Virus record (IMG/VR): IMGVR_UViG_3300036978_000217
Location: 1-32,941 of that record
DNA: 32,941 bases
Source of the DNA: a virus
Direction: 5' to 3' (one strand)
Shown: positions 1 to 26,855 of the stretch, piece by piece
Layout: the number at the start of each line of letters is the position of its first letter
How positions within the stretch are numbered: the stretch's first letter is position 1
Made by a program: the position numbers and the translations under genes
Notes under the pieces: model-generated
Seen by the model: the letters and a program-made list of their open reading frames with translations, nothing else
Databases searched by the model: none
What the model was told of the DNA's origin: nothing

Positions 1-20
1 GTGGCGCGTCATAGGCCCTT

Positions 21-40
21 AAAAAATGGGGTGCCACCCC
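21..40 (-). terminator. Rho-independent terminator after the zinc-array HNH gene
   Basis: Read leftward, the hairpin GGGGT-GGC-ACCCC is followed at once by A and six T residues. It sits 37 bases downstream of the HNH stop codon at 77. The stem has only 5 pairs but is GC-rich with a full T tract, so it fits an intrinsic terminator for leftward transcription. Confidence 0.6.
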
Positions 41-76
41 CCTATGTGTCGCATGAATGTGCTATTGCATCAATGC

Positions 77-949
77 TTAACCAATGAGCATGAGCTGATC
101 GCCCCCAAGGACGTTGCTCTTTGCACTGTTGCAACCGAAGCAAGCGGTCGCCAAGTTTTCAACCACGTGATCGCCACCAAGCGACATAGGAATCAGATGA
201 TCAATGGTCGGGTCTAATGGGTGGTTACTCCACGCCTTGCCGATGCGGCACATCTTCTTGCATATGTGGCACCTGTAAGAATCACGCTCAAATATGTAGG
301 TTCGCTTAATACCTGGCTGGTACTTAACGCCATAGCGCCTTGCACGCTTTCTATGTTCGCCTCGGTGTCGTCGCATTACACAGCGATTACAATCAGTTTT
401 AGTTTCTGATTTTGTCTCAAAAGTTTTACCACATTTACAAACTTTTGTTTGCAATTCTTTTTGTGGATATTTGCGCCTAGAACAATTTTCAGAACAAAAC
501 AATCTCTTTTTATACACATACCAAGAAGGGCACATTGGGCATTGTTTAAGTATTAAATCTGATCGCCAAGGCGTAGATGTTTGGATGCCAGCAAAGGTTG
601 TACGTTCACGGCACTCTTTAGAACAATACTTATTTCCCTTGTTGTTTTGATTCATAACCCACATTGATGTGCATTGGCTACCCAGACAACGCTGAATGCG
701 CTTGACTATTCGATATTTAACACTGCACTCATGTGAGCAACATAGTTGCTTACCCTTTTTTCGAAACATATTAAAACATTGAGGACACTGCCTTGGCTTT
801 ATTTCAACCTTGACCCTGTTGCTTTGTATCCCCGTTGGGCTGGGCTGAATCCTTCGGCAGGGCTGGCATCGATACTGACCCTTAGGCAGGTTACCTTTTC
901 CCTGGTATTTCAACTCACCACAAAGATTGCATTGTTGCTTGCTTGGCAT
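77..949 (-). CDS. HNH endonuclease with an array of zinc-binding CxxC units
   Basis: The 290-residue protein ends in an HNH nuclease domain: CHIC, then a DH pair in the PTIDHLIP stretch, an N in VVENLA, and CFGCNSAKSN. Upstream are about five paired Cys units (CNLC/CQPC, CPQC/CSHEC, an LGSQC/CSKEC pair, CPMC/CSENC, CKCG/CNRC), probably treble-clef or ribbon DNA-binding fingers. HNH proteins of this layout are usually free-standing homing or nicking enzymes. I chose ATG 949 because AGGGAG lies 5 bases upstream; a GTG at 955 overlaps that site. The gene is AT-rich (40 G/C in the 120 bases at 421-540), unlike its neighbours, which suggests transfer. It has its own terminator on each side. Confidence 0.85.
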   Translation of the reverse strand: MPSKQQCNLCGELKYQGKGNLPKGQYRCQPCRRIQPSPTGIQSNRVKVEIKPRQCPQCFNMFRKKGKQLCCSHECSVKYRIVKRIQRCLGSQCTSMWVMNQNNKGNKYCSKECRERTTFAGIQTSTPWRSDLILKQCPMCPSWYVYKKRLFCSENCSRRKYPQKELQTKVCKCGKTFETKSETKTDCNRCVMRRHRGEHRKRARRYGVKYQPGIKRTYIFERDSYRCHICKKMCRIGKAWSNHPLDPTIDHLIPMSLGGDHVVENLATACFGCNSAKSNVLGGDQLMLIG

Positions 950-952
950 TAT

Positions 953-1000
953 CACTCCCTAGTTATGCGAAAGACCCGCACCTAGGGAGTGCGGGCCTTT
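953..1000 (-). promoter_or_regulatory. Candidate loop-Shine-Dalgarno pseudoknot controlling the HNH gene
   Basis: In the leftward transcript a 12-bp hairpin has the 7-base loop UCCCUAG (988-982). Seven bases after the hairpin comes CUAGGGAGUG (962-953), which holds the AGGGAG ribosome-binding site for ATG 949. The loop is a perfect complement of CUAGGGA, and the complementarity extends to 10 bp if three stem pairs open. The arrangement could hide the ribosome site or switch between two folds. Pairing is read directly; regulation is inferred. Confidence 0.5.
970..1000 (-). terminator. Terminator-like hairpin between the two HNH genes
   Basis: The leftward RNA AAAGGCCCGCAC pairs with GUGCGGGUCUUU (12 bp, one G-U) around a 7-base loop. 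It lies 37 bases after the stop of the small HNH gene and just before the zinc-array HNH gene. The T-rich end (TCTTTC) is short, so termination may be partial. Confidence 0.6.
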
Positions 1001-1037
1001 CTGATCCCGTGATCAAGCGGGACTTCTTATTGGTGGT

Positions 1038-1307
1038 TCACCACATGCGTGATGTGCGTGGCTTCTTCAAGCCGCGGCCTTCACGCTTACTGCTGTTGCA
1101 GCCAAAGTGCGCGGCCCTCAGATTCTCTCGAGCGAGCATGTCGCCACCTTTACTCAGTGGCACAACGTGATCAACGCTTGGTGAGTAACGTGTTCGAGCT
1201 GGTGCATCAAAGTCAATTGGGTGCCCGCATAGGTGGCAGATTGTTTCCTCAGCAAGTACCTGGGCAGCGACCCGCTTCCATGCCGCGGACCTGTACGTGA
1301 TGCTCAC
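1038..1307 (-). CDS. Small HNH endonuclease
   Basis: This is an 89-residue single-domain HNH nuclease. It shows CHLC at residues 24-27, VDHVVPLSKGG with the catalytic DH at 46-47, N62, and FGCNSSK near 70. HNH proteins of this size often lie beside phage terminase genes and can assist DNA packaging cleavage. Here it follows a neck-type protein and shares a GTGA start/stop overlap with it, so translation is probably coupled. The start is GTG at 1307. A terminator-like hairpin follows. The HNH call is sure; the role is not. Confidence 0.88.
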   Translation of the reverse strand: MSITYRSAAWKRVAAQVLAEETICHLCGHPIDFDAPARTRYSPSVDHVVPLSKGGDMLARENLRAAHFGCNSSKREGRGLKKPRTSRMW

Positions 1308-1873
1308 TTAATCTTGCGTGCGATCTCGTTAGTGAAGTCCACGACCACAGAGTTCACAGCTGAACGAACCTTAGGCATTTGTTTCTGGCCAGTCTTATCA
1401 AACCAGCCTTTACCGTTAACTGTCTTTGTCATGTACCAGTAGTCTTTGTTACCAAACAGAGGGTGACGTACTTGACCCTTGCTGTTAATGGCACGAGCAA
1501 TACGGTTGACTTCAGTCTTAGGATTATTCTCAAGTATTCGCACACCAGCAGATGACGCGCTCTTAGATACCTTGGTCTTGATACCAAAGTCCATCTCAGC
1601 GCGTAGGCTTCTGGCTTGTTTCCATTTACCAGACTTGAGCTTGCGACTGCCACGATTAGCGCGTGAACCGCCTTTACGTGCAGTGCTCTTGAACTCAATG
1701 TCACGAGCTGCTTTCTTCAAGTCAGTCTCAATAGGCTTAGCAGCCACCCTGATTTTAGCGTTAAGACGCTTAGTCAACTCTTTAGAGTTAGCAGTCTTAG
1801 CAATCATTTGCTGTGCGTGCTGGAGTTGTTTCAATCCCTTTTCGTCAATGTAGACCAGGTTCTTTGCAGCCAT
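1304..1873 (-). CDS. HK97-gp10-like neck or tail-completion protein
   Basis: The 189-residue protein is basic at its N-terminal half and ends with RHPLFGN, a GWF motif and a helical tail, the layout seen in HK97 gp10-like proteins of actinophages. Those proteins join head to tail. Relatives usually lie between the connector and the tail terminator, but that slot (around 23086) is empty here and this gene sits at the far end of the map beside a fibre gene. ATG 1873 has AGGGG six bases upstream, overlapping the stop of the preceding gene; a GTG at 1876 is less likely. Confidence 0.65.
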   Translation of the reverse strand: MAAKNLVYIDEKGLKQLQHAQQMIAKTANSKELTKRLNAKIRVAAKPIETDLKKAARDIEFKSTARKGGSRANRGSRKLKSGKWKQARSLRAEMDFGIKTKVSKSASSAGVRILENNPKTEVNRIARAINSKGQVRHPLFGNKDYWYMTKTVNGKGWFDKTGQKQMPKVRSAVNSVVVDFTNEIARKIK

Positions 1874-3683: not shown

Positions 3684-3717
3684 AAACCCACTAACTCGGG
3701 GGAGGGTTAGTGGGCTT
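3684..3717 (-). terminator. Rho-independent terminator closing the RusA/HTH transcription unit
   Basis: The leftward RNA AAGCCCACUAAC pairs with GUUAGUGGGUUU (12 bp, one G-U), followed by TTTTCG. The loop is CCTCCCCCGA. It lies 56 bases downstream of the HTH gene stop. The loop contains the anti-Shine-Dalgarno CCTCC, complementary to the GAGGAGG site 13 bases beyond the hairpin. Confidence 0.8.
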
Positions 3718-26030: not shown

Positions 26031-26766
26031 CCTCAGTCCCTTCATCAGCCTTCACCAACGCGCGTTGCTCACGGTGCAGGTCAGCGGTCAACAGTTGTGA
26101 TTTGTGGTGCCCAACCTCGACACCAGTGTGAACAAACGTCTTAAACCCTGACTCCAATGCACGCAAACAGAACGTGATGTCCTCGCCCACTGGCCGGCCA
26201 CCCATCTCAGTTTCTTGAAACCAAGTGAAAGTCTTGTTGTAGGCCCTGGTGCGAATAGCCTCAAGTGCGCTGCGGTGAATCAACAAAAACGCCGCACCAG
26301 TGGCAGCCACGGGGATCACAGTGTTCGGCTCAAAGTCATGCATCCGGACCGTGGTAATCCCACCCTCAAACTCAGCGAGCTGATAGATCGTGGGAAACAA
26401 CTCACCATTACTGGCACCAAAACACAGGCCACCAACAATGGGTGCATTCACAGGGTCAGCGACCTCAAGCAACTGCTCAAGCGCGGTGTGCTCCCACTGC
26501 ATATCAGAGTCAATCCACCACAACCACTCCGCGGTGTAATCATCGAGGAAACGTTGCGTCACAGTGTTGCGTGAGGCTGAGACGTTAGCCGATGACCAGT
26601 CCTGCTCAATCCCCACAATGCGCCGATTCAATCCCTGATCATGCATCAAAGACATAATCAGCGAGTGCGTGAAGAACGCTGAGACTTGACCTGGGTGAAT
26701 GTAACCAATGACCACGTTATCGAGGCTGGTCAGTTTTGGCTTATTCGTTTTCGCTTTACTAGGCAT
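26023..26766 (-). CDS. Family 2-like glycosyltransferase in the head operon
   Basis: The 247-residue protein has a GT-A fold pattern: VVIGYIHPG start, ASRNTV (64-69), and the metal/nucleotide-sugar DxD as DSDM (86-89). AATGAAFLLIHR follows, then a C-terminal GEDITFCLRA and VGHHKSQLL. It probably transfers a sugar to capsid or tail proteins, as shown for some mycobacteriophages with glycosyltransferases near structural genes. The ribosome site and start codon are duplicated (26764-26795). Confidence 0.78.
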   Translation of the reverse strand: MPSKAKTNKPKLTSLDNVVIGYIHPGQVSAFFTHSLIMSLMHDQGLNRRIVGIEQDWSSANVSASRNTVTQRFLDDYTAEWLWWIDSDMQWEHTALEQLLEVADPVNAPIVGGLCFGASNGELFPTIYQLAEFEGGITTVRMHDFEPNTVIPVAATGAAFLLIHRSALEAIRTRAYNKTFTWFQETEMGGRPVGEDITFCLRALESGFKTFVHTGVEVGHHKSQLLTADLHREQRALVKADEGTEGV

Positions 26767-26795
26767 TTGTTTGGTCCCTACATTTGTTTGGTCCC
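26764..26795 (-). repeat. Duplicated ribosome site and start codon
   Basis: GGGACCAAACAAATG occurs twice, separated by TA. The upstream copy reads AUG-UAG, a start followed at once by a stop. The downstream copy starts the glycosyltransferase. A shorter version (GGGACCAAATG) starts the tail chaperone at 21318. Confidence 0.75.
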
Positions 26796-26798
26796 AGA

Positions 26799-26843
26799 AC
26801 TCGCACCAAAGTCAGAGGCTCGTGGCTTAACTTCGGTGCGAGT
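26799..26843 (-). terminator. Hairpin after the capsid gene
   Basis: ACTCGCACCGAAG pairs with CTTTGGTGCGAGT (13 bp, one G-U) around a 19-base loop, 13 bases after the capsid stop. The T tract is poor (TTCTGG), so it may be an attenuator or an mRNA-end stabiliser that lets capsid mRNA outnumber downstream genes. Confidence 0.5.
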
Positions 26844-26855
26844 CCTAGATTATGA

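Follow-up and report, generated by a model that had tools for sequence, protein, structure and literature searches.

The window, by which the whole stretch of DNA analysed here is meant, is a viral record 32,941 bases long whose late genes lie on the minus strand. The genes for terminase, portal and capsid occupy the right end and are followed by tail genes, and two HNH genes (-) lie at the left end, one small and the other encoding an endonuclease with a zinc-finger array. Between them stands a segment composed of two hairpins, P1 and P2, a short linker and the Shine-Dalgarno (SD) strand of the zinc-finger HNH gene (Table 1). The stop codon of the small HNH gene is 15 nt ahead of P1, and an in-frame GTG of the zinc-finger HNH gene, at 955, sits within the SD strand. 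The left end of the window (...GACGCGCCAC) coincides with the point where several contigs of relatives end, and in the relative L005 this common end sequence runs on into TerS and TerL; the left end is therefore very probably cos. A strong terminator-like hairpin (GGGGTGGCACCCC-ATTTTTT, window 28-40 (-)) is present between the zinc-finger HNH gene and cos.

Table 1. Positions of the leader, its parts and the adjoining genes in the window
Feature	Positions	Strand	Basis
Small HNH gene, upstream of the leader	1038..1307	(-)	Pfam HNH 6.4e-07
P1 hairpin UCCCG / CGGGA, loop CUUGAUCA	1005..1022	(-)	R1/R2 alignments; family covariation
P2 hairpin, 13-bp stem, 7-nt apical loop UCCCUAG	969..1001	(-)	Folding; family covariation
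Apical loop UCCCUAG, 5' side of the loop-SD helix (S2)	982..988	(-)	7 bp with 962-956; covariation
Linker GCAUAA, 6 nt, from P2 to the SD strand	963..968	(-)	Linker of 3-8 nt in all members, mostly GCAUU
CUAGGGAGUG, SD and 3' side of the loop-SD helix	953..962	(-)	Complementarity; kept in relatives
Zinc-finger-array HNH endonuclease gene	77..949	(-)	ATG 949-947; Pfam HNH 6.4e-08, HNH_5 2e-07; PHROG HNH
Cassette of leader and zinc-finger HNH gene	approx. 70..1037	(-)	Empty-site comparison with L003-L010

The P1 loop of the window contains the palindrome UGAUCA, and the P2 stem extends from G1001-C969 to C989-G981, including one G.U pair. The apical loop (988-982) is perfectly complementary over 7 bp to 962-956 (CUAGGGA), and its match with CUAGGGAGUG reaches 10 bp through CAC 991-989 on 955-953, the same CAC forming the top of the P2 stem. 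Direct pairing thus bears out the complementarity to the SD of the zinc-finger HNH gene, with its 10-bp extension, that had been proposed in the initial annotation; the hairpin described there is likewise present, with a stem of 13 bp by count in place of the 12 bp given. The fold z-score of the window leader is -3.8. Perfect 10-nt inverted repeats with a gap of 5-40 nt number 6 in the window against 1.65 (maximum 6) in 60 dinucleotide shuffles, so the 10-nt repeat alone is weak evidence, whereas a loop match of at least 10 nt is rare, arising 2 times when the SD region was shuffled 20,000 times. On its own, the match in the window is just modestly beyond chance; it is covariation across the family that lifts it far above this level.

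The leader and the zinc-finger HNH gene form one cassette. Six relatives carry a small HNH protein that is 94-99% identical, and both the leader and the zinc-finger HNH gene are absent from all six, although one of these contigs (L010) ends 25 nt past the small HNH gene and says little on absence. In four of the six, the common end sequence lies within about 80-95 nt after the small HNH gene, and the cassette-free L005 reads small HNH gene, cos, TerS and TerL. Leader and gene therefore come and go together. Four Arthrobacter phages (L163, L164, L335 and L336) have the leader and the first protein residues (MRTCTQDNCQRPHRARGLCA) in common and differ downstream, as if HNH modules had been swapped behind a fixed leader. 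In Mycobacterium phage Aubs (L166, 1150-1340), P1 is intact, and a deletion has apparently taken away P2 and the SD along with the N-terminal portion of the HNH gene.

A leader family in actinophages

Twenty-two aligned loci share the leader shape, comprising P1, P2, a linker of 3-8 nt and an SD strand that matches the P2 loop. They come from cluster F mycobacteriophages, from Arthrobacter and environmental phages, and from seven actinobacterial genomes. The environmental and Arthrobacter phage members were added by pattern and BLAST searches, and the seven genome loci (L351-L357) were obtained with a covariance model (CM) from four overlapping draws of 392-399 genomes; the same type of search detected the leader in none of 274 gammaproteobacterial genomes. 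Three other loci scored by the CM (L358, L359 and L360) were rejected as plain hairpins. The R2 model, from which the window had been left out, gives one strong site in it, 947-1025, with a score of 45.7 bits (E 7e-10), the next best reaching 11 bits. The apparent "2 places per record" in cluster F reflect the palindromic P2 on the other strand and not a second copy. An exact hairpin pattern search of viral contigs gave no match, and a single-protein search with the zinc-finger HNH protein gave one distant match, which was without the leader.

The geometry is constrained across the members, with a P2 stem of 12-17 bp (the longer values including pairs counted up to the loop) and a distance of 4-9 nt from the end of the SD strand to the start codon. 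The loop types include UCUCCAGG, UCUCCUGG, UCUCCCGG, UCCCUAG(G), UCCAGAG, UCCAUAG, UCCUCUAG, CUCCCAGG and UUCCAAGG, and every one of them is matched by an SD strand of its own. Loops with UCUCCNGG, which many members have, are over-represented, the seed set having been found largely with them; this does not apply to the window, the Arthrobacter phages and L351-L357, which were reached by other routes. Between gp98 and gp99 of Mycobacterium phage Mahavrat, UCUCCAGG lies opposite CCUGGAGA. The distant relative L029 (TerL 66%) has a zinc-finger HNH gene at the same place, with 37% identity over the aligned protein, and its leader includes P1, P2 and the loop UCUCCUGG opposite the SD strand CCAGGAGA.

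Nearly all leaders precede zinc-finger HNH genes, and many adjoin terminase genes or cos. Pfam HNH models match most of the downstream genes tested; L074 has no match at 0.01, and HNH_3 in L095 falls just under the cut-off. TerL-like ORFs follow the HNH gene in L029, where the call is a search match, and in L055, L074, L095 and L171, where it was made by eye. No further gene separates the HNH gene from the end of the record in Mahavrat, Shauna1, Whatsapiecost, Phanphagia and the Arthrobacter phages. In most members with a placeable upstream gene, the stop of that gene is located 10-19 nt before P1. Three loci depart from the HNH context: L048 (136-265) has a leader with a perfect 8-bp loop-SD match, followed by a 13-codon ORF and a TerS-like gene, with no HNH gene; the leader of L357 precedes another, non-HNH gene; and L367, outside the alignment, precedes a glycosyltransferase-like gene. 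Any control by the leader is therefore not specific to HNH genes. Conversely, the zinc-finger HNH genes of GAL1, Aminay and Leroy gave no R1 match at E<=1, and the family is thus neither universal for nor exclusive to genes of this kind.

A palindrome occupies the same place in the P1 loop of the window (1017-1010 (-)) and of all members. It reads GAUC in most of them, a count inflated by several members having been found with a pattern that fixes TGATC, AGCU or UAGCUA in L048, L352, L062 and L367, and AAUU or UAAUUA in the group of the Arthrobacter phage Hestia. These palindromes could possibly form a kissing dimer or a U-turn loop. A role of the UGA, UAG or UAA triplet in this loop as a translated stop was rejected, the frames being inconsistent and a start codon mostly missing.

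Covariation of the loop and the Shine-Dalgarno strand

A loop-SD duplex of 7-9 bp, differing in sequence, is present in 20 of the 22 members; the exceptions are L357, with 6 bp, and L353, with 6 of 7 pairs and an A.G mismatch. Relatives that keep the SD and lose the loop complement, which according to the initial annotation would have spoken against the pairing, are therefore not the pattern observed, and the covariation of loop and SD that it had suggested looking for in relatives is present, with compensatory changes. In S2, 97.6% of cells are paired and 6 of 7 pairs have changed on both sides; the covariation score is 0.80 against 0.31 after shuffling (0/500), and slid registers give 0.03-0.19. 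The pair counts are written in a chosen register, so the unbiased test is one in which partners are swapped. In this register-free comparison, the duplex of a loop with its own SD averages 7.8, against 5.3-5.5 with swapped SDs (0/100,000 permutations), with the same outcome for all 22 members and for one member per distinct loop; the swap also corrects for the trivial pairing that is possible between CUCC and GGAG, although UCUCCNGG is common to many members. A natural double change is seen between near-identical leaders of Arthrobacter phages, in which UCCAGAG/CUCUGGA of Hestia corresponds to UCCAUAG/CUAUGGA of Phrank15 and Persistence, loop G to U being accompanied by C to A in the SD strand.

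The hairpins themselves also covary. All five P1 pairs and 9 of the 11 modelled P2 pairs have changed on both sides, and for P1 and P2 together (14/16 pairs) covariation is 0.63 against 0.21 (0/500). The S2 duplex has energies of about -8 to -18 kcal/mol, except in L353 (-3.7), where the A.G mismatch splits the helix. On the coding strand, 15 G.U pairs are counted against 1 A.C, an excess that places the structure in mRNA. Sequence comparison across the members thus shows P1, P2 and the loop-SD helix as comparative features of the coding RNA.

Searches that left the loop and SD free gave a similar picture. One such pattern retrieved 168 distinct hairpins, eight of which have a loop match of 7-9 nt at +10 to +12, all eight being leaders of zinc-finger HNH genes; matches in the others are at most 6, except for one of 7 at +39. 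A second pattern of this kind recovered known members and the weaker L367 (6 nt). S2 measures 8-9 bp in five of the seven genome members found by the CM, even though a CM cannot model S2. Where a hairpin of this stem and linker stands ahead of a lysin gene, a tail gene or another gene, the loop match is 0-6 nt.

Proposed control of HNH translation and competing readings

On this basis, the segment 1022-947 (-) is probably a cis-acting leader of the zinc-finger HNH gene, one of an actinophage family, in which a loop-SD pseudoknot restrains HNH translation; that it is a real and apparently undescribed RNA switch is very likely. P2 would fold as soon as it is transcribed, and the SD strand, emerging a few nucleotides later, would pair with the whole apical loop to give an H-type, kissing-like pseudoknot. 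Pairing of an entire 7-nt loop without bridging nucleotides is known from kissing loops and is unusual for a pseudoknot. With the SD occupied, 30S subunits would initiate the HNH gene poorly until the pseudoknot is opened; from SD occlusion alone we infer that the pairing lowers HNH translation. Candidate openers include ribosomes that terminate on the upstream gene, a protein of the phage, which might be the HNH protein, and RNA cleavage, or the leader may simply set a constant low rate of HNH translation. With stops 10-19 nt before P1, and judging by the ribosome footprint, terminating upstream ribosomes would touch P1 and not P2. A scan for sigma-70-type promoters found no site near 950-1100 (-).

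In phage HK97, the HNH protein gp74, encoded beside cos, promotes cos cleavage and acts in packaging (PMC9410871), and by this precedent control of such a gene would bear on the timing of DNA cutting and packaging. A broader proposal, that these leaders are a new family of phage riboregulators by cos and terminase in which the loop-SD lock of an HNH gene is opened by a phage signal so as to time a DNA-cutting protein to packaging, is rather doubtful; the signal could be supplied by the phage's own zinc-finger protein or by a protein of the packaging machinery, or could consist in dimerisation via the palindromic P1 loops. If the proposed function is correct, actinophages possess a widespread and apparently unlisted leader RNA, a compact loop-SD lock whose letters are free to change while they match. 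The family includes mycobacteriophages and Arthrobacter phages that can be propagated on laboratory strains, and the mechanism is therefore directly testable.

Several other readings of the locus were weighed. A pseudoknot that is real and helpful, holding the SD for ribosomes arriving from the upstream gene or protecting the downstream message, would fit the short distance from the upstream stop to P1 in most placeable members, and pseudoknots required for translation do exist in timP (PMC11228461) and tisB (PMC7708055); in these two, however, the reported pseudoknots use elements upstream of the ribosome site, whereas in the actinophage leader the SD bases themselves are paired, over the whole loop and 7-9 bp, and this reading is improbable. 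Slightly less probable again is a nested switch, in which pairing of CACUCCCUAGGUGCGG with UCGCAUAACUAGGGAGUG into a long hairpin would be the off state, with P2 as the on state. The long hairpin is the MFE structure of some longer segments of the window, and at -33.1 against -34.4 for the P2 fold it comes within 1.3 kcal/mol. P2 nevertheless folds better throughout the 22 members, with a margin of about 6-20 kcal/mol in the 21 besides the window, and both P2 and S2 covary, as a pseudoknot requires. The alternative long hairpin of the initial annotation is thus nearly equal to P2 in the window only and does not hold as a conserved state.

The label of terminator hairpin given there fared no better. 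An ordinary intrinsic terminator between two HNH genes, beside the SD by chance and with a coincidental loop match, would explain the GC-rich stem with its AAAG/CUUU base and the terminator-like score on the plus strand, and similar stems with a CGCAU tail and no loop-SD match do precede other late genes of actinophages. No member has a U-tract, however, the 8 nt that follow the stem containing 1-3 U (22/22); the loop-SD match covaries and is missing from pattern-matched terminators; and P2 and the loop-SD helix are conserved side by side, not as competing states. A chance terminator is accordingly very improbable. Equally so is an action of the inverted repeats in DNA, as a protein or nuclease site, a cruciform or a cos-related signal. 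The closeness of many members to terminase genes or cos and the GATC, AGCT or AATT palindromes of the P1 loop would suit it, but complementarity is conserved and sequence is not, G.U pairs exceed A.C on the coding strand, CM scores on the reverse strand are much lower, and the S2 match falls exactly on the SD.

Relation to known elements and other intergenic hairpins

In SAM-II and preQ1-II translational riboswitches, a hairpin loop pairs with the SD in an H-type pseudoknot that occludes it. The actinophage leader differs in that no conserved ligand-pocket sequence is seen and the letters of loop and SD vary freely while matching. Hairpins that sequester the ribosome-binding site (RBS) are known for T4-type homing endonucleases, namely I-TevI, I-TevII, I-TevIII, segB and Aeh1 mobE (PMC2988022, PMC3014915). 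Common to these and the leader are a phage endonuclease gene (HNH in mobE) and leader RNA structure over the ribosome site. In the T4-type systems, the SD lies inside a nested stem, which is bypassed by late transcripts starting within it (PMC2988022, PMC3014915), whereas in the actinophage leader it pairs with the apical loop of an intact hairpin as a pseudoknot kept by covariation across actinophages; an SD in a stable nested stem is not found there, the nested fold being about 6-20 kcal/mol worse in 21 of 22 members and nearly equal in the window. As described, Aeromonas phage 25 seg43(25) resembles the leader in having a very stable hairpin directly upstream of the endonuclease RBS, without the RBS inside (PMC2988022); that review reports no sequestering of the RBS by this hairpin (PMC2988022).

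The gene 32 leader of T4, T2 and RB69 is likewise a phage leader pseudoknot with translational control, upstream of a zinc-binding nucleic-acid protein (PMC3014915), but its pseudoknot lies in a region 67 nt upstream, nucleates protein binding and does not include the SD (PMC3014915). The SAS/ESAS elements of mycobacteriophage cluster K (PMC3203893) and Microbacterium phage cluster EF (PMC7302621), an SD-like repeat with an inverted repeat upstream, are likewise located where translation starts in actinophages. The SAS repeat has 13 bp of fixed sequence and occurs many times, and its authors saw little evidence that the ESAS repeats pair in RNA, whereas the actinophage leader is nearly single-copy and its RNA pairing covaries; the SAS repeat GGGATAGGAGCCC is not matched by the SD strand of the window, which reads CTAGGGAGTG. 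Rfam 15 gave no cis-regulatory match above gathering for window 1-1400 and six member loci, Thr_leader matches being rejected as below gathering and on both strands, and nothing in the open-access literature was recognised as a loop-SD leader element.

Other hairpins of related appearance occur in these phages. Matches before lysin genes in Corynebacterium and Curtobacterium, which have the stem and lack P1 and a loop-SD match, were rejected as members. The same stem with a CGCAU linker, again without P1 or a loop-SD match, is seen in L337 (770-870), L364, L368, L371, L374 and others, where it stands ahead of late genes, those for lysin and tail among them, in phages of Corynebacterium and further actinophages; such hairpins constitute a wider intergenic class located at the starts of genes. 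Within the window, another stable intergenic hairpin at 3684-3717 (-) (AAGCCCACTAAC..GTTAGTGGGTTT) has a C-rich loop and a CGTATG linker and lies shortly before a GAGGAGG SD-like site, where pairing is possible for CCUCC/GGAGG only. A long hairpin with 17-bp arms (88%) is found at 26755-26846 (-), between the capsid gene and the next gene, and is followed by the near-exact repeat GGGACCAAACAAATG ahead of the start.
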